From Lentisphaerae bacterium GWF2_49_21 (GTDB taxonomy: Bacteria > Verrucomicrobiota > Lentisphaeria > Victivallales > GWF2-50-93): 64,000 nucleotides of DNA. Below the pieces are notes generated by a model. That model saw only the letters and a program-made list of their open reading frames with translations. It was not told the DNA's origin and ran no database searches. The DNA is taken from contig MHBH01000043.1 of the NCBI GenBank assembly GCA_001804805.1, positions 1 to 64,000 of the forward strand. The letters run 5' to 3'. The translations under genes were made by a program, and so were the position numbers. Below are positions 4,953-34,108 of this stretch, piece after piece. Position 1 is the first letter of the stretch. Each line of letters begins with the position of its first letter.

Positions 4953-6125
4953 ATGATATATAAGCTTCTGTCAGCAATTTCCTGCAGTTTTCTTCTCATT
5001 TCAATATGCTGCCAGTCCGCCCCCATCCCGCCAGGGCCATATGATACCCAGAGGGCAAAGACCGGAACGATCGTCAAATGCAGCCCCGATGGAAAAGCCG
5101 AAGGTTCGCTCCTGCCCGGCGAAGCCATCAGGAACCTGAAGAAAGGTTCAATACTCCATCTGTGCCCCGGAAACTACAGTTCCTCCTTTGATATTGACAT
5201 GGACAATCTTATAATCGAAGGTGAAACGGGGAAATACTGCAGTGCAAGCATCCGGTTGAAGGGCAAGAAGAACATTATCAGGAACCTCTGGACGAGCAGT
5301 GTCGAATGCGAGACGGACATCACTGTCATTGATTCAGTCATAGGCCATTATTCCTGTGAGAACAATGACAAGAAAATGACTCAGGAATTCTACAACTCAT
5401 GTTTCAATACAATAGATGTCTATAGCTACAAGGACAACAAGCTCACGTTCCTGAAATGCAATATTGTAAGCGACAACAGCTATGCGTTCTGGATTTCCTG
5501 GGGTGACGGGAACTTATACTTCACAAACTGCATCTTATATGGGAAGAACAAGCTTTTCAACCTCCCCGAACGCGACAAGGGCAACGATCAGGGAATAAGG
5601 ATCTCCCTGGATAATACTCTTCTCTATGGTGAAATGGCTCTTGCGGACGGAATTAGCAAAGGAGGGGTCAACAGCAGCGGCAAGGAGGAGAAGGCCCTTG
5701 ACTTGAAAGGTCTTAAAAGACTGTCTAAACAGCTTACTACCAGGGGCGACATCATCAACGAAAGACCCATCTTCAAGAAAGAGCTCCAGACAAGATTTGC
5801 GGTCCCTGATGGAGTACGCGTCATTCACAGTTCATCTTCATCCTACTATACGGATCTGAATGTGTTCGTCCTCGATGACAAATCACCCGGAAAAGACAAG
5901 AATATCGGCGCAAATCTCAATGAAATGGGCTTCCCTGTACCTGAACAGCCAAAGGATCCGAAGAAGACTGCTGCCACGCCCCCGGCTCCAGCCCCTACCC
6001 CTGCTGCACCAGCTCCAGCAGTAAAACCGCCAGTCGGGGAAAAACCTGCCGTGAAGGAGAAGGCCGGCGAAACAAACCAGAAGAATCCGGAGCTGCCAGC
6101 TCCAGTCGGACCTAAACTTTTTTAG
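4953..6125 (+). CDS. Exported protein, possible beta-helix fold, Pro/Ala-rich tail
   Basis: The 390-residue product has a clear signal peptide (MIYKLLSAISCSFLLISICC). Its body contains repeated short strands of the form 'LTFLKCNIVSDNSYAFW', 'LYFTNCILYG' and 'ISLDNTLLYG', suggesting a right-handed beta-helix like pectate-lyase-type proteins, though no catalytic motif is evident. The last 60 residues are Pro/Ala/Lys-rich, a possible wall-spanning linker. I chose the ATG at 4953 because AGGGGGA precedes it; an upstream in-frame start would spoil the signal peptide. It converges with hemL and overlaps it by 14 bases. Confidence 0.75.
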   Translation: MIYKLLSAISCSFLLISICCQSAPIPPGPYDTQRAKTGTIVKCSPDGKAEGSLLPGEAIRNLKKGSILHLCPGNYSSSFDIDMDNLIIEGETGKYCSASIRLKGKKNIIRNLWTSSVECETDITVIDSVIGHYSCENNDKKMTQEFYNSCFNTIDVYSYKDNKLTFLKCNIVSDNSYAFWISWGDGNLYFTNCILYGKNKLFNLPERDKGNDQGIRISLDNTLLYGEMALADGISKGGVNSSGKEEKALDLKGLKRLSKQLTTRGDIINERPIFKKELQTRFAVPDGVRVIHSSSSSYYTDLNVFVLDDKSPGKDKNIGANLNEMGFPVPEQPKDPKKTAATPPAPAPTPAAPAPAVKPPVGEKPAVKEKAGETNQKNPELPAPVGPKLF

Positions 6126-7419
6126 TCAGGTATTCCTTGAGCAGTCCGGCAAGGTATCCGATATCTTTTTCCGAATGTGCCGCGGAAATGAAACCCACTT
6201 CGAACTGAGATGGCGACAGATAAATCCCCTTCTTCAGCATAGACCTGAAGAAATCTGCGAACTTCGCAGTGTCGCAGTCTCTTATCTCTTCAAGATTCCT
6301 GAGCGGCTTCCTGCCAGTAAAGAAAATTGTGAACATACCGCCTTCGCTCACACAATGGACGCCAAGCCTTTTTTCACTTGCCTTCTTATTCACAAGGCAC
6401 TCAATTTTCTTTGCGAACTTCGCAAGTCGTGGATAAGGATTTTCCTTTTTGAGTATCTTCAGCGTCTCGATGCCTGCTGCGAGCGCGACAGGATTTCCGC
6501 TGAGTGTGCCGGCCTGATAGACCGGACCAAGGGGCGCAAGCTTCTTCATTATCGCAGCCTTTCCACCAAGTGCACCAATCGGCATCCCTCCTCCAATGAT
6601 CTTACCGAGAGTCGTAAGATCAGGAGTTATCCCGCAGATTTTCCCGTATGTCGTCGGACCAAGACGGAATCCGGTTATGACTTCATCGAAAATCAAAAGT
6701 GATCCGCTCTTTTTTGTCAGCTTCCTCAATGATTCAAGGAATCCAAGTTCCGGCTTGACAAGACCCATGTTTCCGGCGACTGGCTCCACTATCACTGCCG
6801 CAATATCATTCCCGTGTTTAGAGAAAATCTTTTCCACTGCCGCAATGTCATTATACGCACAGACAAAGACATCATTCACAGCTCCGGCTGGGACTCCTGC
6901 GGAACTTGAAATCCCACCGGTAAGAAGCCCGCTTCCAGCGGCCACAAGCAGATAGTCGGCATGTCCATGATAGCATCCGTCGAACTTGAGGATCTTGTTC
7001 CTTCCGGTGAATCCTCTTGCAAGCCTGATAGCAGTCATCACCGCTTCAGTCCCAGAGGTCACCATCCTGACCATTTCCAGATAAGGAACCATGTCGGTCA
7101 ACAGTTCGGCCATCTCGACTTCCCGGGGAGTGCATGTGCCAAAGCTCATACCATCTGCTGCGGCTTTCTGTACCGCCTCGACAACTTCCCTTCTCGCATG
7201 ACCTAGGATAAGCGGCCCCCACGATCCGCAGAAGTCAATATATCTTTTCCTGTCTGTGTCAAAGACATAAGCCCCCTGCCCTTTTTTCATGTAGACAGGA
7301 TTCCCGCCAACGGACCTGAACGCCCTCACCGGGCTGTTCACTCCGCCGGGGATTAGTTTTTCAGCACGTTTGAACAAAACATTGCCAATTGTCGATTGCC
7401 GATTGCCGATTTTTTTCAT
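6112..7419 (-). CDS. hemL: Glutamate-1-semialdehyde 2,1-aminomutase
   Basis: HemL is a PLP enzyme converting glutamate-1-semialdehyde to 5-aminolevulinate, following HemA. The 435-residue protein has the family opening LIPGGVNSPVRAF, the aspartate motif LLIFDEVITGFR and the PLP-lysine region TTLGKIIGGGMPIGALGG. Start is the ATG at 7417-7419, six or seven bases after GAAGGA. The N-terminal IGNRQSTIGN segment is encoded by a 7-bp repeat array, so the terminus looks altered by repeat expansion. The gene continues the hemA-hemCD-hemB order but is separated from hemB by a tannase-like gene and hipBST. Confidence 0.95.
   Translation of the reverse strand: MKKIGNRQSTIGNVLFKRAEKLIPGGVNSPVRAFRSVGGNPVYMKKGQGAYVFDTDRKRYIDFCGSWGPLILGHARREVVEAVQKAAADGMSFGTCTPREVEMAELLTDMVPYLEMVRMVTSGTEAVMTAIRLARGFTGRNKILKFDGCYHGHADYLLVAAGSGLLTGGISSSAGVPAGAVNDVFVCAYNDIAAVEKIFSKHGNDIAAVIVEPVAGNMGLVKPELGFLESLRKLTKKSGSLLIFDEVITGFRLGPTTYGKICGITPDLTTLGKIIGGGMPIGALGGKAAIMKKLAPLGPVYQAGTLSGNPVALAAGIETLKILKKENPYPRLAKFAKKIECLVNKKASEKRLGVHCVSEGGMFTIFFTGRKPLRNLEEIRDCDTAKFADFFRSMLKKGIYLSPSQFEVGFISAAHSEKDIGYLAGLLKEYLTKKV
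7381..7415. repeat. Heptamer array inside the hemL start
   Basis: Five consecutive 7-base units: ATTGCCA, ATTGTCG, ATTGCCG, ATTGCCG, ATTTTTT. The array lies within the first codons of hemL and is translated as part of its N-terminus. Confidence 0.8.
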
Positions 7420-7441
7420 ATAAATCCTTCGCTGTAATTCT

Positions 7442-7576
7442 GCCAAGCAGACGCTTGGCGTTCCCGGCCCGGGAGCGCCGACCGTCTGGTCGGCTTAAAA
7501 TGAAAACAATCAAAAACGCGCAATAAATTGCGCTACTACCAACAAATTTGAGACAAACTAAAGTTTGAACTCCAAC
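7442..7576. repeat. Cluster of REP-like palindromes upstream of hemL
   Basis: Four palindromes sit side by side. GCCAAGC-AGAC-GCTTGGC occupies 7442-7459; a CCCGG-centred one follows; GCCGACC-GTCT-GGTCGGC occupies 7477-7494; a GTAGTAG-footed one (minus strand) occupies 7517-7539; a GGAG-footed one occupies about 7551-7576. No gene is visible in 7420-7670. Confidence 0.75.
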
Positions 7577-9468: not shown

Positions 9469-9498
9469 ATGATTATAATTAAGACTGGAGATATTTTT

Positions 9499-10106: not shown

Positions 10107-10107
10107 A

Positions 10108-11305: not shown

Positions 11306-12292
11306 TCAAGTCTTGTCAAGAAAAATATTCTCGTATCGGTTCGCCCAATAAGATATGATCATATCCGCTCCTGCACGAGAGATCGCCATCAGCGATTCCT
11401 TCGCCATTCCGTTCAGGTCGCCCCAGCCACGTTCAGCACAAGCTATGATCATTGAATATTCACCGCTCACATTGTATGCGGCCACTGGAAGAAGCGTCTT
11501 CTCCTTCACCTTGCTGATGATGTCGAGATAGCAGAGCGCTGGCTTGACCATCAGGATGTCCGCACCTTCCTTCTCGTCCTCGACAGATTCCTTCAGCGCA
11601 ATTTTAAGGTTCCTGAATGAAGCCTGATATCCCTTTCGGTCGCCTTTGCCGGGCTTTGAAGCCGCAGCGTCACGGAACGGCCCATAGAAATTTGATGCGA
11701 ACTTTGTCGAATAGCTCATAAGGAGCGTATCATTGAATCCCGCCTTTGAAAGCGCATTGCGGATCGCAAGGATCTGTCCGTCCATCATCGCACTCGGAGC
11801 GACGGAATGGGCTCCGGCCTGAGCATGTGACACCGCCATCTTTGCTAGGGACACAAGTGTCCTATCATTTTCAACATCACCATTCTTGTCTAGGATCCCG
11901 CAGTGTCCATGTTTCGTGTATGCGCAGAGGCAGACGTCGGTGAAGATGACCAGTCCCGGATAATTCCTGCGGATCTCGCGGATCGCCTTCTGGACAACTC
12001 CGTCCTTCCTGTATGAATAGCTTCCATCAAGGCTCTTCTGGAAATTCTCGACGACCCCGAATATCATAATTCCACCGATTCCGGACTTCACGACAGGCTC
12101 AAGTCTTTTTATCAAGACATCGACCGTCATTCTGCTCTGTCCGGGCATCGCTGCGATAGGAATCTCCCTGTTCCTGCCTTCTATCACGAAGACCGGCCAG
12201 ACGAACTTCTCCGATCCAGGAAAAGGCTGTGAAAACATCTTCCTCAGTTCCTTGCTCTTCCTGTATCGTCTAAGTCTTGTGGATGGGAACAT
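11306..12292 (-). CDS. hemB: Porphobilinogen synthase
   Basis: HemB condenses two 5-aminolevulinate molecules to porphobilinogen. The 328-residue protein has the cysteine-rich zinc-site segment DVCLCAYTKHGHCGI, the two active-site lysine regions (MSYSTKFAS and LMVKPALCYLD) and the family end YWANRY. AAAGGTGA precedes the ATG. It is the third tetrapyrrole unit on this strand, 263 bases after hemC-cobA-hemD; the space holds repeats rather than a clear promoter. Confidence 0.96.
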   Translation of the reverse strand: MFPSTRLRRYRKSKELRKMFSQPFPGSEKFVWPVFVIEGRNREIPIAAMPGQSRMTVDVLIKRLEPVVKSGIGGIMIFGVVENFQKSLDGSYSYRKDGVVQKAIREIRRNYPGLVIFTDVCLCAYTKHGHCGILDKNGDVENDRTLVSLAKMAVSHAQAGAHSVAPSAMMDGQILAIRNALSKAGFNDTLLMSYSTKFASNFYGPFRDAAASKPGKGDRKGYQASFRNLKIALKESVEDEKEGADILMVKPALCYLDIISKVKEKTLLPVAAYNVSGEYSMIIACAERGWGDLNGMAKESLMAISRAGADMIISYWANRYENIFLDKT

Positions 12293-12555: not shown

Positions 12556-14709
12556 TCACCTCTGATTTAAGATCTTCTTTTCAATCAGTTTTTCAGCCAG
12601 CGATTCAATGCAGCCGTTGATCGTCGCTTCCTTCGCCAAAATAATACTGCCTTTATACTTGAACTTCTTCAATGTCCCAAGCGTCGGCCTGCCAATGACA
12701 ACTGTATCCTTGCCTTTCAGCTTTTCCAGACCGAAATTAGCGCGGAAGGATTCAACTGCGGACGAACTGGCAAATATTGCTGCATCAAATTCCGGGAGCT
12801 TATCATATTTCACCAGAACATTCCTGTAAAGTATTTCATCTGTGACGGTTGCCCCCAGCTTGCGAAGTTCGCAGGAGATTTCCTTGCTGGCCTTGTCGGA
12901 GCACAGACGCAGTACCTTGTCACCTTTCTTGACATGTAACGTTATCGCCTTCAGGAGCCCTTCGGCTCCGTAACTATCAGACGCCTCGATATCAGGGCTT
13001 ATCCCATTCCTGCGAAATTCATCTGCCGTACCTGGACCACAGACGATGATTTTCGGCAGACGCCGAAAATCATATCTTTCCTTTTTCAATGATTCAATAA
13101 AAATCTTCACCGCAGATGGGGAAGTCAGCATTATCCAGTCGTATGTCTTCAGGAGTGTAGAACAGGCGTCTCGCCTGTTTTCTTCTAATCTTATCATCGG
13201 CATCCTGACAGGTATTCCGCCAAGCTCACGAACTTTATTGACCGCCTTGTCCATGATGGAATCACTGCATGTCAAAAGAATTTTCTTCCCTTGCAAAGCT
13301 CCATTTTTCTTCAGCAGATATTTCGGATCTGCGTTCTCGCCAACGATAAAGATTCCTGGCGCTTCGCTTCCTGGAATCTTTATTACTGAGCGGGCAAAGC
13401 CGCTCAGAGAACCAATGATTACTTCTTGTTGAATCTCATTTCCTGCAGAAATAACAACCGCAGCAGGCGTATTCCTGCTTCTCCCATCCTTGATCAGGAA
13501 TTTTGCGATGTTCGCAGTTTCAGAAAGCCCCATGAAGAAAACAGATGGGAAACTAAGTCTCTCTTCCTTTGAAACATGCTGGAATTCAGATGAACCGGAT
13601 CTGCGGGGCGTCATTACGGAAAATCCCCTTGACAGTCCACGTCGCGTCAGCATAAGGCCAGTAGCTCCGACTGCATTCAAGCTGCTGACACCGGGAATCA
13701 CCCTGTATGGCAGTTCAAGCTTATCGAGCGTTTCGATTTCTTCTGCGAGCCTTCCGAATATCGTCGGATCCCCGCCCTTGAGACGGACGACGCTCTTCCC
13801 CTGTCTTGCGAACTTCGCAATCAGGGCATTAATCTCATCCTGCTTCATACTGTGGCAGCCGCTTCTTTTACCGACGAAGAGCATTCGTGCTGTCTCGGGA
13901 AGGTTCTTGAGCAGGTCGGATGAAATTAATGCATCATAGAGGCAGACATCGCATATTCTCAAGGCATCTACAGCGGCGAGAGTTGCGAGATCAGCATCTC
14001 CAGGCCCAGCTCCGGCGAACACCACCGATTTCACGAACAGCTTCCGGATCTCATTGAAGATTCCATCCTCTTTCCTGTAAGTCAGAGCAAGCCACCCCTG
14101 CCCTTCGGGGGGAGCAAGCTCCCTTTCATCTATGTATTCAGAGATCCTGTTTTCGAGTCCTAACCTCTTAAGGCCGGCGGCGGCCATGATGAGCATGTCG
14201 AATTTGCCGGCATCCAGCTGGGCTATCCTGTCATCGATGTTGCCTCTTATAGGCAGAAGTTCCGCCTTCGGGAATTTCTTCCTGCAATATTCCTCGCGGC
14301 GCGCACTACTGACACCGATGCGCATTTTCGATTTTCGATTGATGATTTTTAATTTTAAAATTCTTAACTTCGCCATTTCGGGCATTATAATTACATCCCT
14401 TGCATCTTCGCACCATGGCAACCAGAACCAGTCGATTCCTTCCGGCATCGGATCCGGGAGATCCTTGGCGCTGTGGATGGCGCAGTCGATCTTTCTGGAG
14501 CGTATGGCGTCATCAAGATCCTTTGTGAAAAAGTCAGCCGGGGAGACTTTCAGATCGGTCTTCCTGTCACGGTCGCCGGGGGTGGAAACAGTCTCAAGCT
14601 TGAATTCAATGCATGGAAGGATTGCCTTGAGCTTGTCCAGGGAATCCGAAGTCTGCGCGACTGAAAGCTTGCTGCCACGCGTCCCGACTTTTATCTTGAC
14701 TCTTTTCAT
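12556..14709 (-). CDS. hemC: HemC-CobA-HemD trifunctional fusion, HemC third domain missing
   Basis: One 717-residue chain carries three activities of the uroporphyrinogen/precorrin branch. Residues 1-225 match porphobilinogen deaminase domains 1 and 2 (Arg11, catalytic Asp83 in HSAKDLP, Arg137-Arg138, IRGNIDDR). Residues about 228-470 are uroporphyrinogen-III methyltransferase (GAGPGDADL, RLKGGDPTIFGR, IPGVSSLNA), giving precorrin-2. The remainder is uroporphyrinogen-III synthase. Domain 3 of HemC, with the cysteine that anchors the dipyrromethane cofactor, is absent: the chain passes from EGQGWLALTYRKED almost directly into CobA. A heptamer array adds residues near 114-128 and a REP is translated as RRDACS in HemD. 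No ribosome site precedes the ATG. Confidence 0.92.
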   Translation of the reverse strand: MKRVKIKVGTRGSKLSVAQTSDSLDKLKAILPCIEFKLETVSTPGDRDRKTDLKVSPADFFTKDLDDAIRSRKIDCAIHSAKDLPDPMPEGIDWFWLPWCEDARDVIIMPEMAKLRILKLKIINRKSKMRIGVSSARREEYCRKKFPKAELLPIRGNIDDRIAQLDAGKFDMLIMAAAGLKRLGLENRISEYIDERELAPPEGQGWLALTYRKEDGIFNEIRKLFVKSVVFAGAGPGDADLATLAAVDALRICDVCLYDALISSDLLKNLPETARMLFVGKRSGCHSMKQDEINALIAKFARQGKSVVRLKGGDPTIFGRLAEEIETLDKLELPYRVIPGVSSLNAVGATGLMLTRRGLSRGFSVMTPRRSGSSEFQHVSKEERLSFPSVFFMGLSETANIAKFLIKDGRSRNTPAAVVISAGNEIQQEVIIGSLSGFARSVIKIPGSEAPGIFIVGENADPKYLLKKNGALQGKKILLTCSDSIMDKAVNKVRELGGIPVRMPMIRLEENRRDACSTLLKTYDWIMLTSPSAVKIFIESLKKERYDFRRLPKIIVCGPGTADEFRRNGISPDIEASDSYGAEGLLKAITLHVKKGDKVLRLCSDKASKEISCELRKLGATVTDEILYRNVLVKYDKLPEFDAAIFASSSAVESFRANFGLEKLKGKDTVVIGRPTLGTLKKFKYKGSIILAKEATINGCIESLAEKLIEKKILNQR
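13157..13182. repeat. REP palindrome inside the hemD portion
   Basis: GTAGAACAGGCG-TCT-CGCCTGTTTTC lies wholly within coding sequence and is translated in frame on the minus strand (ENRRDACST). It is the same family as the REPs flanking the transposase at 33363 and 34075. Confidence 0.8.
14324..14365. repeat. Heptamer array inside hemC
   Basis: Six 7-base units (ATTTTCG, ATTTTCG, ATTGATG, ATTTTTA, ATTTTAA, AATTCTT). They encode the Lys/Ile-rich stretch between HemC domains 1 and 2. Compared with E. coli HemC from memory, this linker is about seven residues longer, which equals three heptamers. Confidence 0.75.
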
Positions 14710-14783: not shown

Positions 14784-16286
14784 TCAGGATCCTTTAATGC
14801 CGTTCATAAGCTTTTCAAACTGCGGACGGTGCTCTTCAACGGCTTGAGAGCTCTTATCAAAGACATGCGACATGTCGATGGCCTCGCGGCGGTGCCAGTG
14901 CTTCAGATCGTCGAGATCGGCGATTGTCATATTCGGCATCAGTTTCTTGAATTCAGGAGATACATTTCGCGGTATCCCGAGATCGATTATCAGCATTTTC
15001 CTGGTCTGGTCCATGAACGGAGCATGTCCGTTATGGATGAGATAGGCAGGAGTCGTTGCTACAGAAATTATGATCTCAGCAGAAGGAAGATGGTCTTTCA
15101 TCTCGTTAAGATTGCAAAGCCTGATCTTCTCTCCATGTTTGACTTCAGGGCGGTTCATATGGTAGCACCAGGTGAAGGAACATCCTTTGGCGATCAGTTT
15201 TTCCGCAATTGCCTGGCCTATTATGCCGGTTCCGATGAGCATCACGCCGTGCTTTGAAATATCCGGAAAAATGTCAGAAGCATACTTGAGAGACAGATCC
15301 TCAATTTCGAAAGCTGAGAACATGGGTTCGACGATCTGGCGGATATGCTTCGAGATATGGAGAGTGTTGTCAAACCATTCCTGCATCAGTTTTCCAGCCC
15401 AGCCTTTTGACTTCGAATAGTCGAGAGCGCTCTTGAGCTGCGCGGTTATGTGTTTCTCGCCGGGTGTCTGGGACATAAGTCCGGCGCAGACAAAAGACAT
15501 ATGCCTGAAGGCGTCATATCCGTATTTCATGTAGTATGAATCATCGCGGAGGATGTCAAATCCTAATATCTTCAGCAGGAGCTTCTCAAGAGGCTGTGAC
15601 GGAGATACAAATGCAACCACCTCGATCCTGTTGCAGGTGTTGACGAGCATGAACTCGTGGACTCCAAGGAGATTGGTGAGCATTTCGCCGGTACAGTCAA
15701 ATCTGTCGCCGACCAGATGCACAGACTCACGTTCGTTGAGGCTAAGGTAGTTCTGGTCAGTCCCGATGACAAGCATTTCAGTCTTCGAGATGAAATCCAT
15801 ATGCCGGGATATCTTCTCCTTTATCAAGCGGCTCCTCCTGCAGGAGGTTCCGCCGGTTGAGACTGACACCATGAGGCCGTCCTTCTCGATAGATGCCGGC
15901 GTGATGAAGGCGCCATCCTTCCAGTTCTCATCAACGGCACAGCAGAGTATCCCCTGCTTTTTGCAATGCTCAAGGACTTCCGAGTTTACAGTACCGCTGT
16001 TTGTAGCGGAAAACACAAGGGCCATGCCTTTCAGGTATGATGGCTCAAATTTACTTTTTACAATTGAAAGACTATCCGGTGATCCGAGCTCCGTTATTTC
16101 AGGATCGATCTCAGGAGCCAGTACAGTGACATGAGCATGTGCCTTGAGCAGAAGCTGGATCTTGTGGAGCGCGACGCTGCCTCCGCCGACGACAAGGCAT
16201 TTCCTCCCCTTGAGGAGGAGATTTACCGGGAATGTCTTGTGCTCAGTTTTAGTGTTTGTTTTCATGATTTTCGCACACTGTTTCAT
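14784..16286 (-). CDS. hemA: Fusion of precorrin-2 dehydrogenase and glutamyl-tRNA reductase
   Basis: The first 160 or so residues match the SirC/Met8 fold that oxidises precorrin-2 to sirohydrochlorin (VVGGGSVALHKIQLL, an Asp in CCAVDENWKDGAFITPA, VSTGGTSCRRSRLI). The rest is HemA, which reduces glutamyl-tRNA: catalytic Cys in LVNTCNRIE and NADPH-domain GTGIIGQAIAEKL. The usual GxNHKTAPV start of HemA reads GTDQNYLSLNERE, and the C-terminal dimerisation helix region is shortened by about 80 residues. HemA joined to a CysG-like domain is known in Clostridium hem operons. ATG at 16286 or GTG at 16295 are both possible. Confidence 0.92.
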   Translation of the reverse strand: MKQCAKIMKTNTKTEHKTFPVNLLLKGRKCLVVGGGSVALHKIQLLLKAHAHVTVLAPEIDPEITELGSPDSLSIVKSKFEPSYLKGMALVFSATNSGTVNSEVLEHCKKQGILCCAVDENWKDGAFITPASIEKDGLMVSVSTGGTSCRRSRLIKEKISRHMDFISKTEMLVIGTDQNYLSLNERESVHLVGDRFDCTGEMLTNLLGVHEFMLVNTCNRIEVVAFVSPSQPLEKLLLKILGFDILRDDSYYMKYGYDAFRHMSFVCAGLMSQTPGEKHITAQLKSALDYSKSKGWAGKLMQEWFDNTLHISKHIRQIVEPMFSAFEIEDLSLKYASDIFPDISKHGVMLIGTGIIGQAIAEKLIAKGCSFTWCYHMNRPEVKHGEKIRLCNLNEMKDHLPSAEIIISVATTPAYLIHNGHAPFMDQTRKMLIIDLGIPRNVSPEFKKLMPNMTIADLDDLKHWHRREAIDMSHVFDKSSQAVEEHRPQFEKLMNGIKGS

Positions 16287-16386
16287 GTTATGCACTTAAA
16301 ATGAAATCTATGCCGGTTTCGTCCTGTTTTCAATTCATAGTCCTGTGAAAATTATTTATACTCAAGTCTTAAAAGACAAAGACATG

Positions 16387-25901: not shown

Positions 25902-25930
25902 GAGCTGATATGTTTCAAATAAGGATCTAC

Positions 25931-26800
25931 ATGAAAATATTTATGATATTTGCCTTAATTACAGTTCTTAGCTTCGGGCTCTTTGCCGAGGAACAATCAT
26001 CTACCCAGAAAGGAACAAAAAACATGGATGCAATACTTCTCGTGACGTTCGGCACCAGCGATCCGGAGGCTAAAAAAGCATTTGTCAACATTGAAAAACT
26101 TGCCAGAGCAAAATTCCCCGTCTATGAGATTAGATGGGCATACACCTCCGAAATGATAAGGAGGAATCTCGCAAAAAAGGGCGAAATCCTCCTTTCACCC
26201 GAGGAGGCTCTCCTAAAACTCAAGGAAGACGGCTTCAAGAACGTTTACGCACAGTCCCTCCACATCATCCCAGGCGAGGAATTCCACCAGGTCGTTGCAA
26301 CAGTCGTCAAGTTCAAGAAGGATTTCGACAAGCTCATCATCAGCCCGCCGCTTCTCAACTCCATGGCCGACGTAAAAAAAAGCGTCAAGTTGATGCTCTC
26401 CAAGGTTCCTACCGAGCGCAAGAAGGAGGATGCAGTCCTCTTCATGGGACATGGTTCAGGCAAGCATCCTTCCGACATGATCTATGTTGCCGCGGCATAT
26501 GAAATCGAAAAATCCGACGGCAATGCCTTCCTTGCGACCGTAGAAGGCAATCCGACATTGGACGATGTCCTTGCCGGATTGAAAGGAAAAAAAGTCAGGA
26601 AGGCATATCTGCTGCCTTTCATGTCGGTTGCCGGCGACCATGCGAAGAACGACATGGCGGGAAGCGAGCCGGATTCCTGGAAATCGATACTCGCAAAGAA
26701 CGGGATTGAATCGGCGCCTGTCATGAAAGGCATGGCGGAATATGACGAGATCGTGGAGATATGGCTGGAACATCTGGAGAAGACAATCAAAGGCTTGTAG
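25931..26800 (+). CDS. cbiK: Sirohydrochlorin cobaltochelatase, exported form
   Basis: CbiK inserts cobalt into sirohydrochlorin, the first committed step of anaerobic cobalamin synthesis. The 289-residue protein has the family opening AILLVTFGTSDPEAKKAF and the two histidine motifs MGHGSGKHPSD and SVAGDHAKND. A signal peptide (MKIFMIFALITVLSFGLFAEE) precedes the domain, as in the periplasmic CbiK of Desulfovibrio. In an operon with cytoplasmic corrin enzymes this is unexpected. I chose the ATG at 25931, after AAGGA; an in-frame ATG at 25910 has no ribosome site. It is the first gene below the riboswitch. Confidence 0.93.
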   Translation: MKIFMIFALITVLSFGLFAEEQSSTQKGTKNMDAILLVTFGTSDPEAKKAFVNIEKLARAKFPVYEIRWAYTSEMIRRNLAKKGEILLSPEEALLKLKEDGFKNVYAQSLHIIPGEEFHQVVATVVKFKKDFDKLIISPPLLNSMADVKKSVKLMLSKVPTERKKEDAVLFMGHGSGKHPSDMIYVAAAYEIEKSDGNAFLATVEGNPTLDDVLAGLKGKKVRKAYLLPFMSVAGDHAKNDMAGSEPDSWKSILAKNGIESAPVMKGMAEYDEIVEIWLEHLEKTIKGL

Positions 26801-26806
26801 TAGCGA

Positions 26807-26906
26807 AAGTAGGGACGGCCTTTAGGCTGTCCCACTCTTAAAAAGATGGTACATGCTAAAGCACGTACCTACCTAAAGAACGGCGTATAAATACGCCTAC
26901 TACAAA
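26807..26906. repeat. Composite REP before cbiL
   Basis: Three hairpins in a row: GGGACGGCC-TTTA-GGCTGTCCC, GTACATGC-TAAA-GCACGTAC and GGCGTATAAATACGCC with a reversed GTAGTAG foot. It starts six bases after the cbiK stop and reaches cbiL. Confidence 0.82.
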
Positions 26907-26909
26907 CAA

Positions 26910-27650
26910 ATGAACAAAGGGGAAATGAAAACAAAAAAACATACAGGCACCTTCTACGGCATCGGGGTCGGCCCCGGAGATCCGGACCTTGTCACAATTA
27001 AGGCCGTAAAGGCGCTCAAAAAGGTCAAATACGTATTCGAGGCGACATCAGGCCCGAAGAAGGACAGCATAGCCGGACGCATAGCAAAAAAATATTATTC
27101 AAAGCCGACGAAATTCATGTCGCTCGTCTTCCCGATGGTAAACGATTCAAAAACAAGGAACGATGCATGGAAGAAAAACGCAGGAATTGTCGCGGAAAAA
27201 CTCCTTTCCGGACATGACTGTGCGTTCGTTACTATCGGTGATCCGATGATATACAGCACATGCTCATATCTTCTGGCCGAGCTTAGGAAACTCATCCCTT
27301 CGCTGAAATCCGAGATCATCCCGGGAATCACCTCTTTCCAGACGGCTGCGGCAAAATCACAGGAACCTCTGGTGGAAGATCGGGAGACCCTTACGATAAT
27401 CCCTTCCTTCTCTTCCGGGATCGCCGCTGAACTCAAGAAATATCCTTCGGACTCGATTGTACTGATGAAGGCTTTCAGGACGAAAAAGGAGATTGCCGCA
27501 TATATCAGGAAAAACAGATGCACTGCGATATTCGCATCCAGGCTCTGCCTGAAAGGCGAACTGGTGACTTCGGATATTGGTGTCGCGGAAAAATACCCGG
27601 AAGAATACCTTTCATTATTCATAGTAAAGAAGAAATCCCGCAATGGCTGA
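26910..27650 (+). CDS. cbiL: Cobalt-factor II / precorrin-2 C20-methyltransferase
   Basis: CbiL methylates C20 of the cobalt-factor II ring with SAM. The 246-residue protein has the class III methyltransferase motifs GIGVGPGDPDLVTIKAVKAL, VTIGDPMIYSTCSYL and IIPGITSFQTAAAKSQEPL; the last is typical of the C20 enzyme. Two starts are possible (ATG 26910 and 26925); neither has a well-spaced ribosome site. The stop overlaps the next gene by eight bases. Confidence 0.93.
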   Translation: MNKGEMKTKKHTGTFYGIGVGPGDPDLVTIKAVKALKKVKYVFEATSGPKKDSIAGRIAKKYYSKPTKFMSLVFPMVNDSKTRNDAWKKNAGIVAEKLLSGHDCAFVTIGDPMIYSTCSYLLAELRKLIPSLKSEIIPGITSFQTAAAKSQEPLVEDRETLTIIPSFSSGIAAELKKYPSDSIVLMKAFRTKKEIAAYIRKNRCTAIFASRLCLKGELVTSDIGVAEKYPEEYLSLFIVKKKSRNG

Positions 27651-28590
27651 GCGTGAATTCACAACAATCGCCATACTCCAGGCTTCCTCCTGGATACTTT
27701 TCGCTGTCGCGATAGGCGCATTCATTGCGAACATCATAGAGAGCAGGAACTGGACAGGATTCATAGCCTTCATTGCAAAACCTCTTCTGAAGTTCAGCCG
27801 TCTTCCCGGAGTATGCGGAGTCTCCTTCGGCACAGCCTTCTTTTCGAACAACGCCGCAGGAAGCATGATTGCCTCAGCCTATTCCGAAGGGAAAATAACC
27901 AGGAAGGAAATGTTCATCGGGGCGATAACCAATTCATTCCCGGCCAAGTTCAAACACATGATGAGGCCGGCGGTCGTCATAGTCCCGCTGCTGGGTCTGA
28001 CCGCCATATTATATCTCGCAATCCAGCTGGTCCTCGAAGTCCTGCAGGTGCTTCTCGTCTTTTCATTCGGACGGAGGAAGACTCTTGAAAAGACCGAATG
28101 CGAAGTTCCTGAGGAGAAGGCGCCTCCGCCATGGAAGGAAAGCATCAGGAATTCCCTGAAGGCCACGGGAAAAATCCTCCTGCGCGTCTTACTGATAACA
28201 CTTCCGATATTCATCTTCGTCGCATATCTCGGGGACAAGGGCGTGTTCAAGAAGATGGAAAAGCGGATCCCAAAGGACCTGCAGACGGTCCTCTCTCCGG
28301 AGATCATCGCGATAATGGGCTCCAAGATGGGCGGCCTAGTAAGTTCGGCAACCGTTGCGGACAAGATGTTCAAGGAAGGCAGGGTGACAAGCCTGCAGAT
28401 ACTGATCGCATTGATGGCTGCAAACATGATAACGATTCCGTTCAGCGCATTACGCAGGAACCTCCCGACCGCGCTAGGCATATTCCCGAAACGCGACGGA
28501 GCATGGATCGTAGGAATAACCCAGAGCCTGCGCTTCGTTTTCAATCTGGCGGCACTCGCAATACTGATCATAATTCAATTAAACATCTAA
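27643..28590 (+). CDS. GATE-domain (nucleoside-recognition) membrane protein
   Basis: The 315-residue protein has about seven to eight hydrophobic segments in two similar halves, with FFSNNAAGSMIASAY in the first and GSKMGGLVSSATVADKMF in the second, typical of the nucleoside-recognition (Gate) domain family of membrane proteins. Its substrate is unknown. It overlaps cbiL and is followed ten bases later by cbiC, so it is firmly inside the corrin operon. Movement of cobalt or a corrin intermediate is a reasonable guess, not a demonstrated role. Confidence 0.82.
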   Translation: MAEREFTTIAILQASSWILFAVAIGAFIANIIESRNWTGFIAFIAKPLLKFSRLPGVCGVSFGTAFFSNNAAGSMIASAYSEGKITRKEMFIGAITNSFPAKFKHMMRPAVVIVPLLGLTAILYLAIQLVLEVLQVLLVFSFGRRKTLEKTECEVPEEKAPPPWKESIRNSLKATGKILLRVLLITLPIFIFVAYLGDKGVFKKMEKRIPKDLQTVLSPEIIAIMGSKMGGLVSSATVADKMFKEGRVTSLQILIALMAANMITIPFSALRRNLPTALGIFPKRDGAWIVGITQSLRFVFNLAALAILIIIQLNI

Positions 28591-28599
28591 GGTATGACA

Positions 28600-29277
28600 A
28601 TGAAAGCTTTATCTGACATAAAATGGGATATGAATGCGGCCGAGATCGAAGCGGAGAGCTTCCGCATCATTGAAAAGGAATTCCCGAATCATCCTTTCAA
28701 AGGGCCGGAATGGAATGTTGCAAGACGCCTCATCCACACCACTGCCGACTTCTCCATCTGCGGCAACCTCGTGTTCAAGGGCAACCCGATAGAAGCGGGA
28801 CTGAAGGCCGTTACTGGAGGTGCCATGATCTACTGCGACTCGAACATGATACGGAGCGGAATATCCGTCCCGAAGCTCAGGCTCTTAAACCCCGCTTATT
28901 CGAAGGAATCCATCCACTGCTATATCGCCGACAGCGACGTCGCCGAGATGGCCGAGAAGGATGGGACGACCCGCGCCCTTGCATCATTGAAGAAAGCCGA
29001 AAAGATATTGGACGGAGCCATAGTCCTCATTGGCAATGCACCACTCGCGCTTGCGGGAATCGCAAAGCTTTATCTCGAAAAGAAAATCAGGCCATCCCTG
29101 ATAATCGGAATGCCTGTCGGCTTCGTCAATGTCATCGAATCGAAAGTCCTGCTTTCAAAAACGGATATTCCATATATTATGATAGAAGGAAGAAGGGGCG
29201 GGAGCACGCTTGCAGTGGCGACACTGCATGGAATAATGGAGAATATCAACCACAAAGGCACAAAGGCACAAAGTTAA
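28600..29277 (+). CDS. cbiC: Cobalt-precorrin-8 methylmutase
   Basis: CbiC moves the C11 methyl group to C12, giving cobyrinate (or its cobalt form). The 225-residue protein has the catalytic histidine in RLIHTTADFS and the family segments GGAMIYCDSNMI and IGNAPLAL, with IIGMPVGFVNVIESK near the end. Start is ATG at 28600, seven bases after TAAGG. The last eight residues (HKGTKAQS) are encoded by an octamer array, so the C-terminus has been extended or replaced by repeat. Confidence 0.94.
   Translation: MKALSDIKWDMNAAEIEAESFRIIEKEFPNHPFKGPEWNVARRLIHTTADFSICGNLVFKGNPIEAGLKAVTGGAMIYCDSNMIRSGISVPKLRLLNPAYSKESIHCYIADSDVAEMAEKDGTTRALASLKKAEKILDGAIVLIGNAPLALAGIAKLYLEKKIRPSLIIGMPVGFVNVIESKVLLSKTDIPYIMIEGRRGGSTLAVATLHGIMENINHKGTKAQS
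29250..29273. repeat. Octamer array at the end of cbiC
   Basis: CCACAAAG, GCACAAAG and GCACAAAG follow without gaps and are translated as the CbiC C-terminus. Confidence 0.75.
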
Positions 29278-29282
29278 ATAGC

Positions 29283-30422
29283 ATGAATGAAAATAAGAAA
29301 ACGGAAACAAGGAAACTAAGGACGGGCTTCACCACCGGTGCATGTGCCACGGCGGCAGCAAAGGCCGCATGGATACTGTACAATGGTGAAAAAGTGAAGG
29401 ACGAAGTGAGTATCACGTTCCCCGATAGGAAACACAGGTCCATCAAGCTGGAATCGACCGAGTTCGACGAGGGGAACCGGATTGCCAGGGCATCTGTCAT
29501 AAAGGACGCAGGCGATGATCCTGACGTCACCGACAACGTCCTGATAACTGTTAAAATCACGCCTATACCTGCAAAGAAAATCTCCGGAAGCGATTTCACA
29601 GAGGACATACTGGATTGCTCTTTTGTGATCAGGGGCGGCAAAGGCGTCGGGCTTGTGACAAGACAGGGACTGCCAGTTCCAGAGGGTAAATGGGCAATCA
29701 ATCCTGTTCCAAGAAAAATGATTTCGGAGAACATTTCATCCTGTGACTTCAAGGCGGCCGGGCTTTTCCTTTTGGAAATCTCCGTCAGGAACGGAGAGAG
29801 GATCGCCAAGAAGACACTTAATCCCACTCTTGGCATCAAGGGCGGCATATCGATCCTCGGTACAAGCGGGATAGTGGTCCCCTACTCCAACAAGGCATAT
29901 CTCAAAACTGTCAAGATCCTCCTGAACGGCGCAAAGATGCAGCGTGTCAGGCACATAGCCCTATGTACCGGCGGAACAACCGCCAAGTCGATCAGGAAAA
30001 TGTATCCGGATATTCCTGAACAGGGGATAATCAGGATTGGAGATTTCATCAATCCTTCGATAAAACATGCGTCCTCACTCGGTTTCGAAAAGATAACTGT
30101 CGCATGCATGCCCGGAAAACTCCTTAAATATGCCGAAGGGCACAGGAATACGCATGCACATAACGTGAAACAGCAGATGGGCGGACTTGCGAAGTTCGCA
30201 GAAGACCTCGGATTCAGCGGGGAGACAATTTCAAGGATAAAAGGCTCCTCCACCGTCAGAGAGATCTTGAACTTCATAAAGCCGGATCCGGCACTTCAGA
30301 TGATGAATCAACTTGCCGGAAAAGCACTGGGCAACTTCTTCAGCTGGACAGGATCCTCGAATATCGAGCTGGTGGTTTTTGATACTGACGGGAAAACAGT
30401 AACTAAAAGAAGCAGCTTATAA
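29283..30422 (+). CDS. cbiD: Cobalt-precorrin-5B C1-methyltransferase
   Basis: CbiD methylates C1 during anaerobic ring contraction. The 379-residue protein has the family's LRTGFTTGACATAAAKAA start, then GGKGVGLVTRQGLPV and NPTLGIKGGISILGTSGIV. I chose ATG at 29283, five bases after the cbiC stop; a long frame extending back to 28710 is only the shadow of cbiC. No clear ribosome site precedes the ATG, so it may rely on coupling from cbiC. Confidence 0.94.
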   Translation: MNENKKTETRKLRTGFTTGACATAAAKAAWILYNGEKVKDEVSITFPDRKHRSIKLESTEFDEGNRIARASVIKDAGDDPDVTDNVLITVKITPIPAKKISGSDFTEDILDCSFVIRGGKGVGLVTRQGLPVPEGKWAINPVPRKMISENISSCDFKAAGLFLLEISVRNGERIAKKTLNPTLGIKGGISILGTSGIVVPYSNKAYLKTVKILLNGAKMQRVRHIALCTGGTTAKSIRKMYPDIPEQGIIRIGDFINPSIKHASSLGFEKITVACMPGKLLKYAEGHRNTHAHNVKQQMGGLAKFAEDLGFSGETISRIKGSSTVREILNFIKPDPALQMMNQLAGKALGNFFSWTGSSNIELVVFDTDGKTVTKRSSL

Positions 30423-30448
30423 CATTATAGGATTTAAAATTCCATGTT

Positions 30449-30579
30449 CGTAGTAGTGCAATTTATTGCACGTGAAGTAGGGACGGGCTTTAGCCTGTCC
30501 CATTCTTAAAGCTAAAGATGGTACATGCTGAAGCACGTACCTACCTTAAGAACGGCTAATAAATTCGCCTACTACAAAC
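30449..30579. repeat. REP plus composite REP before cbiET
   Basis: A GTAGTAG-footed hairpin (about 30450-30473) is followed by the same three-part composite as before cbiL: GACGGGC-TTTA-GCCTGTC, GTACATGC-TGAA-GCACGTAC and GGCTAATAAATTCGCC with a reversed foot. It fills the cbiD-cbiET gap. Confidence 0.82.
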
Positions 30580-30604
30580 AAGAAGCATTTTGAAAGTGGC
30601 TCAA

Positions 30605-31813
30605 ATGAATAAAAAAGTCAAAGTGGCCGTTGTCGGATGCGGAGTGTCTCCGGAATGCGTTTCGTCACATGCAAGAGAAGTTGTCCTGCATGCCGATGTA
30701 CTTGCCGGCGGAAAAAGACTGCTGGACTTCTTTCCGGAGTTCAAAGGGAGGAAGATCGCGATCAAGTCCGGAGTGCTTGAAGTCATTTCCGAGCTGAAGA
30801 GGCTTTCTGCGGACAAGCGCGTCGCCATCCTCGCCTCCGGCGATCCCCTATTCCACGGGATAGGCGCAAAACTCGGTACTCATTTCAAGGCGGCCGAATT
30901 CGAGATCATCCCGAACGTTTCAGCAATGCAGTATCTTTTCTCAAGATTGAAGATGTCATGGCATGATGCATCCCTTTTCACAGTCCATGGCGGCAAGAAA
31001 GCTCCGTACAGGAATATTCTCAATTCAAACAAGGCCGTAATCTACTGTGATGACAAGATTACAGCCTCCAAACTTTCTGCGAAGCTTCTTGAAAAGTTCC
31101 CGTCATGCAAAAACAGAAAGGCGGTGATCGCAGAGAATTTGGGCATGAAAGAAGAGAAGTTCTTCAAAGGGAATTTACGGAGCCTGTCACATAAGAAATG
31201 CGGTAGCCTTTCAATACTTCTCATTCTGCCTACGGAAGGTCTTGTCGACAGCTGCCTGGCTCTCGGCCTCGACGATTCCGAGTTCCTCCACGAGAACCGG
31301 ATGATCACCCATTCCGAAGTCAGGGCAGTCGTGATCTCAAAACTCAGGATAGGCCCCGGCACCATGTGGGATATTGGAGCCGCCAGCGGTTCCGTAGGAA
31401 TTGAGGCCGCATCACTCTGTCCGGATCTGAACGTAATTGCAGTTGAATCCGACGCGGAAAGATTTGCCCAGCTCCAAAAGAACATTGAAGGCTTCAGTCT
31501 TCCAAACGTCAAACCCGTACATGCTGGCGCATTGAAGTCAATTGCCGGCCTTCCTAAAGCCAGGGCAATATTTATCGGCGGCGGTGGCAAGGACGTCAGG
31601 CAGATCACTGAAAATGCGTTCAAGAAACTGCTCCCCGGCGGACGTCTGGTCGTCACGGCTGTCCTTCTCGAGACAAAGGCTGCACTGACGAAGTGCCTTA
31701 AAAGGAATTTTGTCGAAGCCGTAAGTATTTCAATAAGCAGATCATCGGCGCTGGGCTCCTCCAGATTGATGAAATCGGAAAATTCAGTGGATATATTTGT
31801 GTACCAGAAATAG
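30605..31813 (+). CDS. cbiET: CbiE-CbiT fusion, precorrin-6Y methylase/decarboxylase type
   Basis: This bifunctional enzyme methylates C5 and C15 and removes the C12 acetate carboxyl. In the 402-residue protein, residues 1-205 or so are the CbiE class III methyltransferase (VAILASGDPLFHGIG, EIIPNVSAMQYLFSRL, FTVHGG). The rest is a class I CbiT domain (MWDIGAASGSVGIEAA, FIGGGGKDVRQI). The fused form is the CobL arrangement of aerobic producers and also occurs in anaerobic ones. ATG at 30605 is chosen; a TTG at 30590 is in frame. Confidence 0.93.
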   Translation: MNKKVKVAVVGCGVSPECVSSHAREVVLHADVLAGGKRLLDFFPEFKGRKIAIKSGVLEVISELKRLSADKRVAILASGDPLFHGIGAKLGTHFKAAEFEIIPNVSAMQYLFSRLKMSWHDASLFTVHGGKKAPYRNILNSNKAVIYCDDKITASKLSAKLLEKFPSCKNRKAVIAENLGMKEEKFFKGNLRSLSHKKCGSLSILLILPTEGLVDSCLALGLDDSEFLHENRMITHSEVRAVVISKLRIGPGTMWDIGAASGSVGIEAASLCPDLNVIAVESDAERFAQLQKNIEGFSLPNVKPVHAGALKSIAGLPKARAIFIGGGGKDVRQITENAFKKLLPGGRLVVTAVLLETKAALTKCLKRNFVEAVSISISRSSALGSSRLMKSENSVDIFVYQK

Positions 31814-31840
31814 ACAGGATAACAGGATTTTCAGGATATC

Positions 31841-33361
31841 ATGGTAAAAATTAAAATCAACATATCATCAAATCACAAGATTATATTCGCCGGAGCCGGA
31901 CCTGGGGCTCCGGATCTTATCACGCTCAGATGCAAGAGGGCTATAGAGGAAGCAGATCTGATAATTTATGCCGGCTCCCTTGTCAATCCGGAAATACTTT
32001 CATACGCTGGCAAGGGCTGCAAAATTGTCGACAGTGCAATAATTTCGCTAGGCGAAATTATTGAAATAATGAGAAAAAGCTATGAATCAGGGGAAAAAGT
32101 ATTGAGGCTTCACACCGGTGATCCGGCGATCTACGGGGCGATCGCTGAACAGATGACTGAACTGGACAAATTGAAAATCCCCTACGAGGTGATTCCCGGA
32201 GTCAGTTCGATCTTCGCATCTGCAGCGGCGCTCAAGACAGAGCTCACGGCTCCAGGTGTTTCCCAAACAGTTATTCTGACTCGGCAGACAGGCCGGACCC
32301 CGGTTCCGCACGGGCAGGAAATTGCGAATCTCGCAAAACACGGCGCGACCATGGCGGTTTTCCTTTCATCAGGAGACGTCAAAAGCCTTACAGGCGAACT
32401 TATACGCGGTGGATATCCAGTATCAACTCCTGTAGCGGTTGTCTACAGGGCTTCCTGGAAAGAAGAAAAAATCACAAAGGGCACATTGGAAAACATTGAA
32501 GGCAGATTGAAGAAGTCCGGCTTTGCCGGCCGCCAGGCGATGATAATCGTGGGGGATGTTTTGGACAAGGCGAAATGCGGTAAATCCCTCCTCTACGACG
32601 CGGGATTTACGCACGGCTATCGCCGAGCCAGGAAAAATCGAATCGGCGTGTCGGAGATCCGGAGTAACGGCGATTACAAAGGGGATATGGCAGTTTATGC
32701 AATAACCGCAGAAGGAATTGGGACTGCTATAAAGCTGATGTCCAGGATGGAACATGGAACCCTTTTTGCTCCTGAAAGATTCAAGAGAAATTCAATCAAG
32801 AATTCAAAAATGAAATTCTTCAATGAAGGTGGGTTTGACGAGACACTTTCAGAGAACTGGAATAAATACAACGGGCACATATTCATAATGGCGACGGGCA
32901 TCGTTGTCAGGAAGATCTCAAAGCTCATCGGCAGCAAGACAAGCGATCCGGCAGTCGTCGTCTGCGACCAGAAGGGGAATTATGCGATAAGCCTGCTCAG
33001 CGGACATATCGGCGGCGCCAACAGGCTTGCGAAGTTCGCGGCCGAAGTGCTGGGCGGACAGGCGGTGGTGACTACAGCCACAGATGTCCAGGACCTGATG
33101 GCGTTCGATGAGATGGCAGCGATCGAAGGATGGAAGGTCGTTAATCCGAAAATGATCAAGGTTTTGAACTCGATGCTGCTGAAGGGCAAGAGAATTGGAT
33201 TGATGATCCCAAATGATATTTTTAACAAGTATTATTCTTCCAAAAAGAATCTGAGCTGCATTAAAAATTCTGACAAGGTTAGACCTGGCAGTTTGAATGG
33301 AATGGTCATATTTGGCAAACAATTTAAATCATGCAGGACTCCTGTCCTGCTTCTTAAATAA
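31841..33361 (+). CDS. cbiF: CbiF fused to the N-terminal and middle parts of CbiG
   Basis: Residues about 1-255 are cobalt-precorrin-4 C11-methyltransferase (FAGAGPGAPDLITLR, RLHTGDPAIYGAI, IPGVSSIFASAAAL). Residues about 265-500 match the N-terminal and central parts of CbiG, the lactone hydrolase that releases acetaldehyde from cobalt-precorrin-5A (IFIMATGIVVRKI, SLLSGHIGGANRLA, VVTTATDVQDL). The C-terminal CbiG domain is missing and is found at the start of the next cbi gene. The final residues (CRTPVLLLK) are encoded by a palindrome at 33333-33350. Whether both halves together act as CbiG is untested. Confidence 0.92.
   Translation: MVKIKINISSNHKIIFAGAGPGAPDLITLRCKRAIEEADLIIYAGSLVNPEILSYAGKGCKIVDSAIISLGEIIEIMRKSYESGEKVLRLHTGDPAIYGAIAEQMTELDKLKIPYEVIPGVSSIFASAAALKTELTAPGVSQTVILTRQTGRTPVPHGQEIANLAKHGATMAVFLSSGDVKSLTGELIRGGYPVSTPVAVVYRASWKEEKITKGTLENIEGRLKKSGFAGRQAMIIVGDVLDKAKCGKSLLYDAGFTHGYRRARKNRIGVSEIRSNGDYKGDMAVYAITAEGIGTAIKLMSRMEHGTLFAPERFKRNSIKNSKMKFFNEGGFDETLSENWNKYNGHIFIMATGIVVRKISKLIGSKTSDPAVVVCDQKGNYAISLLSGHIGGANRLAKFAAEVLGGQAVVTTATDVQDLMAFDEMAAIEGWKVVNPKMIKVLNSMLLKGKRIGLMIPNDIFNKYYSSKKNLSCIKNSDKVRPGSLNGMVIFGKQFKSCRTPVLLLK
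33333..33350. repeat. Palindrome encoding the end of CbiF-CbiG(N)
   Basis: GCAGGA-CTCCTG-TCCTGC lies within the last codons of the gene. It is adjacent to the left REP of the transposase. Confidence 0.7.
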
Positions 33362-33362
33362 T

Positions 33363-33386
33363 GTAACACAGGCATCTTGCCTGTGA
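33363..33386 (+). repeat. Left REP of the RAYT element
   Basis: GTAACACAGGCA-TCT-TGCCTGTG begins two bases after the cbiF-cbiG(N) stop. Its inverted counterpart lies at 34075-34100. The foot reads GTAA here rather than GTAG. Confidence 0.88.
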
Positions 33387-33398
33387 AAGCTTTTTATT

Positions 33399-34061
33399 AT
33401 GGACACTATCAACTCCCAAATCAAAGAAGATTCTGACGACTCCCCTTCCTTGCTTGTTCCATTTGATTATGCAAATAATCTTGGTATGACAGAAAGGAAC
33501 CTCCCCCATTGGCAACAGGAGCAGGTCACATACTTTATAACTTTCCGTTTGGCTGACTCACTGCCTCAGGAAAAACTAACTCAACTAATGACAGAACAAG
33601 AAAATTGGTTAAGGCACCATAAAACCCCTTATTCAAAGGAAGAAATAAAAGAATATACCGAACTTTTCAATGACAGAATCCAAGGATGGCTCGATGCAGG
33701 ACATGGATCATGTATTTTGAAGGATGAAGCGCTTTCAAAGACAATTGAAGATTCCTTGCTTTTTTTCAAAGGAACAAGATATCTCCTTCATGAATGGATT
33801 ATCATGCCGAACCATATTCATATTCTTTTGACACCAATAAACGGCTTCCCGCTTGACAAGATTATGCATTCTTTGAAATCCTACACCGCCAATGTAATCA
33901 ATAAGGCCACAGGGAGACATGGGAAGCTATGGAAAGATGAATCACATGATCATATTATAAGAAACCTGAAGCAGTTTAATGCCATCAATAAATATATAAT
34001 CATGAATCCGATTAAAGCTGGGCTGAAATCAGGATTCAGAAGCAGTTCAAAAGAAGAATAA
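33399..34061 (+). CDS. REP-associated tyrosine transposase (RAYT, Y1 family)
   Basis: These IS200-like HUH enzymes cut single-stranded REP hairpins. The 220-residue protein has the metal-binding His-Ile-His (residues 139-141 in MPNHIHILL) and a candidate nucleophile Tyr162 (LKSYTANVIN), plus the family end YIIMNPIKAGL. It is intact and framed by inverted REPs at 33363-33386 and 34075-34100. Base composition is richer in A and T than the flanking cbi genes. It sits exactly between the two parts of cbiG. Confidence 0.92.
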   Translation: MDTINSQIKEDSDDSPSLLVPFDYANNLGMTERNLPHWQQEQVTYFITFRLADSLPQEKLTQLMTEQENWLRHHKTPYSKEEIKEYTELFNDRIQGWLDAGHGSCILKDEALSKTIEDSLLFFKGTRYLLHEWIIMPNHIHILLTPINGFPLDKIMHSLKSYTANVINKATGRHGKLWKDESHDHIIRNLKQFNAINKYIIMNPIKAGLKSGFRSSSKEE

Positions 34062-34074
34062 AAGAAAATACAAA

Positions 34075-34100
34075 GACACAGGCAAGATGCCTGTGCTACA
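34075..34100 (-). repeat. Right REP of the RAYT element
   Basis: Read on the minus strand: TGTAGCACAGGCA-TCT-TGCCTGTG. It carries the GTAG foot, is inverted relative to 33363-33386 and lies eight bases before the start of cbiG(C)-cbiH. Confidence 0.88.
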
Positions 34101-34108
34101 TTATAAAA

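Follow-up and report, generated by a model that had tools for sequence, protein, structure and literature searches.

A HemC-CobA-HemD fusion of a Lentisphaerae bacterium carries a hydroxymethylbilane synthase of a distinct two-domain subfamily spread over several phyla

Introduction

To our knowledge, all hemes, chlorophylls, siroheme and B12 are considered to arise by one route only, through hydroxymethylbilane synthase (HMBS, HemC; also named porphobilinogen deaminase, PBGD), which makes its own dipyrromethane and binds it to a cysteine. In the canonical enzyme two porphobilinogens are assembled into the dipyrromethane on Cys242, four more are added and the resulting bilane is hydrolysed off (PMC7242693). 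The motion of the anchoring cysteine pulls the chain during elongation (PMC8561815), and in human HMBS the anchoring residue, Cys261, is intolerant to mutation (PMC10577081).

Here we describe a hemC-cobA-hemD fusion gene located in a 64,000-nucleotide stretch of Lentisphaerae bacterium GWF2_49_21 (assembly GCA_001804805.1, contig MHBH01000043.1, positions 1 to 64,000), hereafter called the window. A sequence-only reading of this gene had proposed that its HemC part lacks the cofactor-binding domain 3, and had left three options: an anchor supplied by CobA or HemD, a primer held non-covalently, or a domain 3 supplied by another gene. We found no report in the open-access literature on domain-3-less, short or truncated HMBS/HemC, or on such fusions.

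Results

The fusion gene (12556..14709, minus strand) encodes a protein of 717 aa without an HMBS domain 3. Its residues 1-223 (14041..14709, minus strand) correspond to domains 1 and 2 of HMBS and were recognised by PF01379 (E 7.4e-52, 176.3 bits) and by the hemC model TIGR00212 (177.9 bits, cut-off 164), the latter over model positions 1-212 of 293 only. They are followed by CobA, the uroporphyrinogen-III C-methyltransferase (residues 228-462; 13324..14028, minus strand; TIGR01469, 206.8 bits, cut-off 185), and by HemD, the uroporphyrinogen-III synthase (residues 475-707; 12589..13287, minus strand; PF02602 E 1.2e-37, 129.8 bits, cut-off 27.5). Pfam placed PF01379 at 6-216, TP_methylase at 229-436 and HEM4 at 489-702, and profiles trained on relatives extended these limits to 1-219 for HMBS, 228-462 for CobA and 475-705 for HemD, leaving no spare sequence at the ends or between the modules.

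The expected start of domain 3 coincides, in the alignments and in the AlphaFold2 model, with the junction between the end of domain 1 and CobA (residues 219-224; 14038..14055, minus strand). PF03900, the Pfam profile of HMBS domain 3, gave no match in the protein even at E<=10, and the alignment lacks the Cys242 loop, so that neither an equivalent of the GGCxxPxG motif nor the dipyrromethane-binding cysteine is present, as the sequence-only reading had stated. Since the HMBS part begins at residue 1 and CobA starts 5-10 residues after its end, no domain 3 can be hidden in the chain. The structure prediction that had been proposed as a check agreed with this: in the AlphaFold2 model of the 717-aa protein (pLDDT 88.1, pTM 0.88) the domain-1 helix 216-222 runs directly into the CobA strand at 229. 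When the HMBS part was compared by Foldseek with E. coli PBGD (1PDA), 212 columns of the 296-residue target were matched (rmsd 2.9, TM by target 0.61), a span equal to the extent of domains 1 and 2. A domain 3 concealed within the fusion chain was thus ruled out by Pfam, by chain arithmetic and by the model, and the absence claimed from the sequence was confirmed.

The genome that contains the window (5.9 Mb, 95% complete) holds a single match to PF01379, which is the fusion gene itself, and none to PF03900 at E<=10; in the control genomes PF01379 matched in 11 of 14, and domain 3 was likewise detected in 11 of 14. These whole-genome profile searches ruled out both a second, complete hemC, the search for which had been suggested earlier, and a separately encoded domain 3. 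Comparison of the HemC part with its nearest relative gave dN 0.104 and dS 0.86 (dN/dS about 0.12), indicating purifying selection.

The neighbouring genes belong to the same pathway. HemB (porphobilinogen synthase; 11306..12292, minus strand; PF00490 E 3.8e-128; NF006762 426 bits, cut-off 297), the supplier of the substrate, lies downstream, HemL (glutamate-1-semialdehyde aminomutase) is encoded at 6112..7446 (minus strand; TIGR00713 573 bits, cut-off 527.3), and the gene upstream (14784..16295, minus strand) encodes a SirC/CysG N-terminal domain fused to HemA (glutamyl-tRNA reductase). This HemA part aligns with TIGR01035 over model positions 2-336 of 416 only (137 bits, cut-off 209.55), no dimerisation domain was detected by Pfam, and, judging from these profiles, it seems also to be without its C-terminal domain. 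Between a tannase-like gene and hemB lies a HipA-type toxin-antitoxin-like module (9469-11088, plus strand) that consists of an HTH protein, a short HipA-N-like protein and a HipA_C kinase.

On the side of the product, an anaerobic cobalamin operon (25910..36647, plus strand) runs in the order CbiK, CbiL, membrane protein, CbiC, CbiD, CbiE, CbiF-CbiG_N, IS200-like ORF, CbiG_C-CbiH and CbiA. CbiG is split here (31841-35218, plus strand), its N-terminal part being carried on CbiF and its C-terminal part on CbiH, with the IS200-like (Y1_Tnp) ORF at 33399-34061 between the two halves. Two genes with NIR_SIR (siroheme-binding) domains were found elsewhere in the genome, and no HemE scored above its cut-off there, so that the products in this organism are probably cobamides and siroheme. 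Several contigs of the same genome together contain 37 URO-D family matches, none of them a true HemE by cut-off; this expansion points to numerous corrinoid-dependent methyltransferases and to a high demand for B12.

We then compared 110 domain-3-less with 109 domain-3 HMBS sequences in E. coli numbering. In the window protein the catalytic aspartate, Asp83 (E. coli Asp84), lies in the motif HSAKDLP (14461..14463, minus strand) and is an aspartate in all 110 domain-3-less sequences; together with K82, R11, R137, R138, R155, R161 and R182 (window numbering) it bears out the earlier claim that the catalytic Asp and arginines are kept in domains 1 and 2. Unchanged in 110/110 were R11, S13, Q19, D46, F62, S81, K83, D84, R132, R149, R155, A170, R176, Q198 and G199. 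In E. coli simulations the dipyrromethane is contacted by S81, K83, D84, T127, S128, S129, R132, R155, L169, A170, Q198 and G199 (PMC3945110), and nearly all of these non-covalent contacts are unchanged or conservatively replaced in the domain-3-less set.

The active-site lid, on the other hand, has been rebuilt (GDRD...DFF, residues 45-62; 14524..14577, minus strand). Three substitutions that are absent or rare in domain-3 enzymes, I48 to D, G60 to D and L61 to F, occur in 109, 106 and 106 of the 110 domain-3-less sequences, respectively, and correspond to D48, D59 and F60 of the window protein. Lys59 of the lid has been lost and Lys55 is not kept, in addition to the disappearance of Arg232 and Cys242 with domain 3. 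Lys55 touches domain 3 (Q243, E305, V306) in the E. coli simulations (PMC3945110), so that changes in the lid and in domain 3 appear to have gone together. In one group of domain-3-less sequences (clade B, L072-L085) we also observed a frequent loss of Arg131, which is normally required for cofactor binding in HMBS.

In the sample of the host phylum, PF01379 matched in 188 of 289 genomes and PF03900 in 96 of 289. The domain-3-less fusion was found in about 75 of the 278 genomes covered by the fusion search, and none of these is one of the 96 in which PF03900 matched. Domain-3-less HMBS occurs in Lentisphaerota (including L104, a MAG labelled Victivallis vadensis), Kiritimatiellota, Omnitrophota, WOR-1 and WS1, and its architecture varies. 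HemC-HemD proteins without CobA are present in the Pontiella sequences L122 and L124 (Kiritimatiellota) and in L163 (Omnitrophota), and free-standing forms in L177 (WOR-1, 212 aa), L130 (WS1), L147 and L218-L237. The Omnitrophota include the free-standing (L147), HemC-HemD (L163) and HemC-CobA-HemD (L172) forms. HMBS was detected in 81 of 145 Omnitrophota genomes: about 20 have ORFs of just 209-250 aa, in most cases with CobA or CobA-HemD as the next gene; in others HMBS is joined to HemD or to CobA-HemD and lacks domain 3, and the remainder keep domain 3. The gene after a free-standing domain-3-less HMBS is usually CobA or CobA-HemD, and in most domain-3-less members HemD is fused to or adjoins HemC. 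The recurrence of the form in about 75 genomes and in the free-standing ORFs of 209-250 aa ruled out a frameshift or an assembly artefact. PF03900 was absent (E<=0.1) from all of eight other whole genomes with a domain-3-less HMBS; three of these eight have a HemE above cut-off, implying that the same type of HMBS feeds heme there.

Some sequences needed individual assignment. L158 (Bacteroidota), a candidate short HMBS, turned out to be a normal gene interrupted by a frameshift ahead of domain 3; since the domain continues intact in the following frame, the sequence was placed in the domain-3 group. Four sequences of Gastranaerophilales/Clostridia (L134, L139, L170, L148), which the domain-3 profile had not flagged, were rejected as domain-3-less and counted as domain-3-bearing because a divergent domain 3 with the Cys is visible in their alignment. 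Two Omnitrophota genomes (G362, G392) hold two HMBS genes each: beside one of normal length (334 and 346 aa) there is a second that lacks domain 3, once as a free-standing protein of 230 aa and once as a fusion of 700 aa. Domain 3 is kept in the HemC-CobA-HemD fusions L089, from the host's phylum, and L179 (Merdimonas); these fusions, together with the free-standing domain-3-less forms, indicate that the loss is not tied to any one kind of fusion.

A tree of 155 HMBS sequences built on domains 1 and 2 was split by one branch (SH-aLRT 98) into 76 domain-3-less and 79 domain-3 sequences, and the presence of domain 3 required a single change on it, versus about 52 in shuffles; the trees are unrooted and do not distinguish between loss and primary absence of the domain. 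The rebuilt lid does not drive this result, since the split persisted in a careful search of 73 rows without the lid columns, with 97 bootstrap, a value not fully settled, and 93 SH-aLRT. The window HMBS stands on the domain-3-less side of the branch, carries the lid motif D48...D60-F61-F62 and has no domain 3; it is a member of a distinct subfamily of two-domain HMBS that spans several phyla.

Discussion

In the two-domain enzyme the polymerising cleft has been kept and the tether is gone. From the pathway context we infer that the window HMBS makes hydroxymethylbilane from porphobilinogen, and the reading that we favour, and hold to be probably right, is that the fusion is a working HMBS/UroS/SUMT enzyme whose HMBS is of the two-domain subfamily and holds primer and chain non-covalently. 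The chain would act in three steps, as HMBS, then UroS, then SUMT, and would convert porphobilinogen to precorrin-2 for cobalamin and siroheme. The primer, either a free dipyrromethane or a starter porphobilinogen, would be gripped together with the growing chain only by the conserved arginines, Lys83, Ser81, Ser129, Gln198 and the rebuilt lid, whose two added aspartates may help in this, and the bilane would be passed to the fused or co-encoded HemD. Among the three options left by the sequence-only reading, a non-covalent primer is the best supported, and, judging from the genomic evidence, it is the most likely one for domain-3-less HMBS; three free-standing members are entirely free of cysteine. 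The intolerance of human Cys261 and the cysteine-driven elongation of the canonical enzyme count against a tether-free enzyme, since the counting of four units is then unaccounted for.

A resident free dipyrromethane and a starter porphobilinogen clamped by the lid aspartates fit our data equally. If the latter were correct, four porphobilinogens would be joined without any primer, the first acting as starter with its ammonium held by the lid aspartates, and an aminomethylbilane or an azafulvene would be delivered to HemD. Asp48 and Asp60 were added in exactly the domain-3-less group, HemD lies in or beside HemC in most members, and the literature has an enzymic conversion of aminomethylbilane to uroporphyrinogen, to judge from the title of Battersby et al. 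1982 as cited in PMC8698207. The added aspartates may, however, merely shape the lid, and a non-covalent dipyrromethane would leave an identical genomic picture; we regard primer-free synthesis as rather doubtful; it is a special case of the favoured reading, with which its probability overlaps. It may also be, though less likely than not, that a two-domain HMBS that starts from porphobilinogen, has no covalent dipyrromethane and releases aminomethylbilane or azafulvene to HemD is a second natural way to the first linear tetrapyrrole.

The dipyrromethane could still be covalent if it were attached to a relocated, lineage-specific cysteine, either C142 or a Cys of CobA or HemD in the window's clade (clade A), or position 172 in clade B. 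Within clade A, 28 of 33 sequences have C142, 32/33 have CobA C256 and 27/33 HemD C557. All 14 sequences of clade B have a Cys at E. coli position 172, a residue of the chain-binding cleft that was in contact with the tetra- to hexapyrrole chain when the E. coli enzyme was simulated (PMC3945110). Over the subfamily, though, the commonest HemC Cys column is filled in only 38 of 110 domain-3-less sequences and the commonest over full chains in 19 of 29. Eight members have no Cys in domains 1 and 2, and three free-standing ones, L177 (212 aa), L223 (221 aa) and L232 (209 aa), all from uncultured draft genomes, have none in the whole ORF, which makes a thioether-anchored dipyrromethane impossible within those chains. 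An anchor on CobA or HemD, the first option of the sequence-only reading, is also disfavoured by the members that lack CobA (L122, L124, L163) or are free-standing. A relocated anchor thus appears unlikely, as does, on present alignments, a thioether-anchored dipyrromethane in the family as a whole; Cys172 is a possible anchor for clade B only.

Supply of domain 3 or of the anchoring cysteine in trans by a separate protein is conceivable, domain 3 being a separate fold in canonical HMBS, and a very divergent domain 3 would evade a profile. Against this, PF03900 found nothing in the window's genome (E<=10) or in the eight others (E<=0.1), while it matched in 11 of 14 controls, free-standing forms are usually followed by a CobA or CobA-HemD gene, and the partner residues Lys59 and Arg232 are gone too, so that this third option of the earlier reading is very improbable. 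A HemC module that survives as a relic, or serves as a scaffold without catalysis, with bilane made elsewhere, is hardly credible even though a domain thought essential is missing, given that it is the sole hemC of its genome, that the catalytic set is complete in 110/110 and dN/dS low, that the form recurs across the host phylum and that cobalamin and siroheme genes lie downstream in the pathway.

The supposedly universal covalent cofactor may therefore be dispensable: an HMBS found in several phyla with a full catalytic set and no cofactor domain, and with three Cys-free members, suggests that HMBS chemistry can probably do without a covalent primer. In the window's bacterium the backbone of B12 and siroheme would be made by an enzyme without the known primer-holding part. 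The small natural enzymes of 209-221 aa allow the long-debated priming and chain counting to be studied free of the cofactor. The subfamily also bears on the origin of the dipyrromethane cofactor: because all domain-3-less enzymes fall on one side of the unrooted tree, the two-domain form could be the older one, to which the covalent cofactor domain was added later.

Compared with canonical HMBS (E. coli 1PDA, human HMBS), the domain-3-less enzymes share the fold of domains 1 and 2, Asp84, Lys83, Arg11/132/149/155/176, Ser81/129 and Gln198, and the models of the window protein and of L177 (pLDDT 94) match solved PBGD structures over domains 1 and 2 only, with 27-43% identity there. They differ in having no domain 3, GGCxxPxG loop, Arg232 or Cys242, in the Lys55 and Lys59 positions, in the I48D, G60D and L61F lid and in their separate part of the tree. 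Also related is NF002202 (PRK01066.1) of NCBIfam, a 241-position hydroxymethylbilane synthase model which we take to be that of chlamydial HemC and which is likewise too short for domain 3; short HMBS sequences are thus not unprecedented. The HMBS part of every one of the 16 sequences in alignment A1 is matched by this model; the window protein scores 147 bits, below the curated cut-off of 251, and is not a member; moreover, the HMBS of NF002202 is unfused and that of the window fused. The L089 and L179 fusions have the same enzyme order in one chain as the window protein, but they retain domain 3 with a GADC or GGSC loop and branch with canonical HMBS, pointing to an independent fusion. Finally, the CobA-HemD fusions common in bacteria have the same CobA-HemD arrangement as the window protein with HMBS encoded separately, and in the domain-3-less loci of WOR-1, WS1 and Omnitrophota such a fusion is the adjacent gene.
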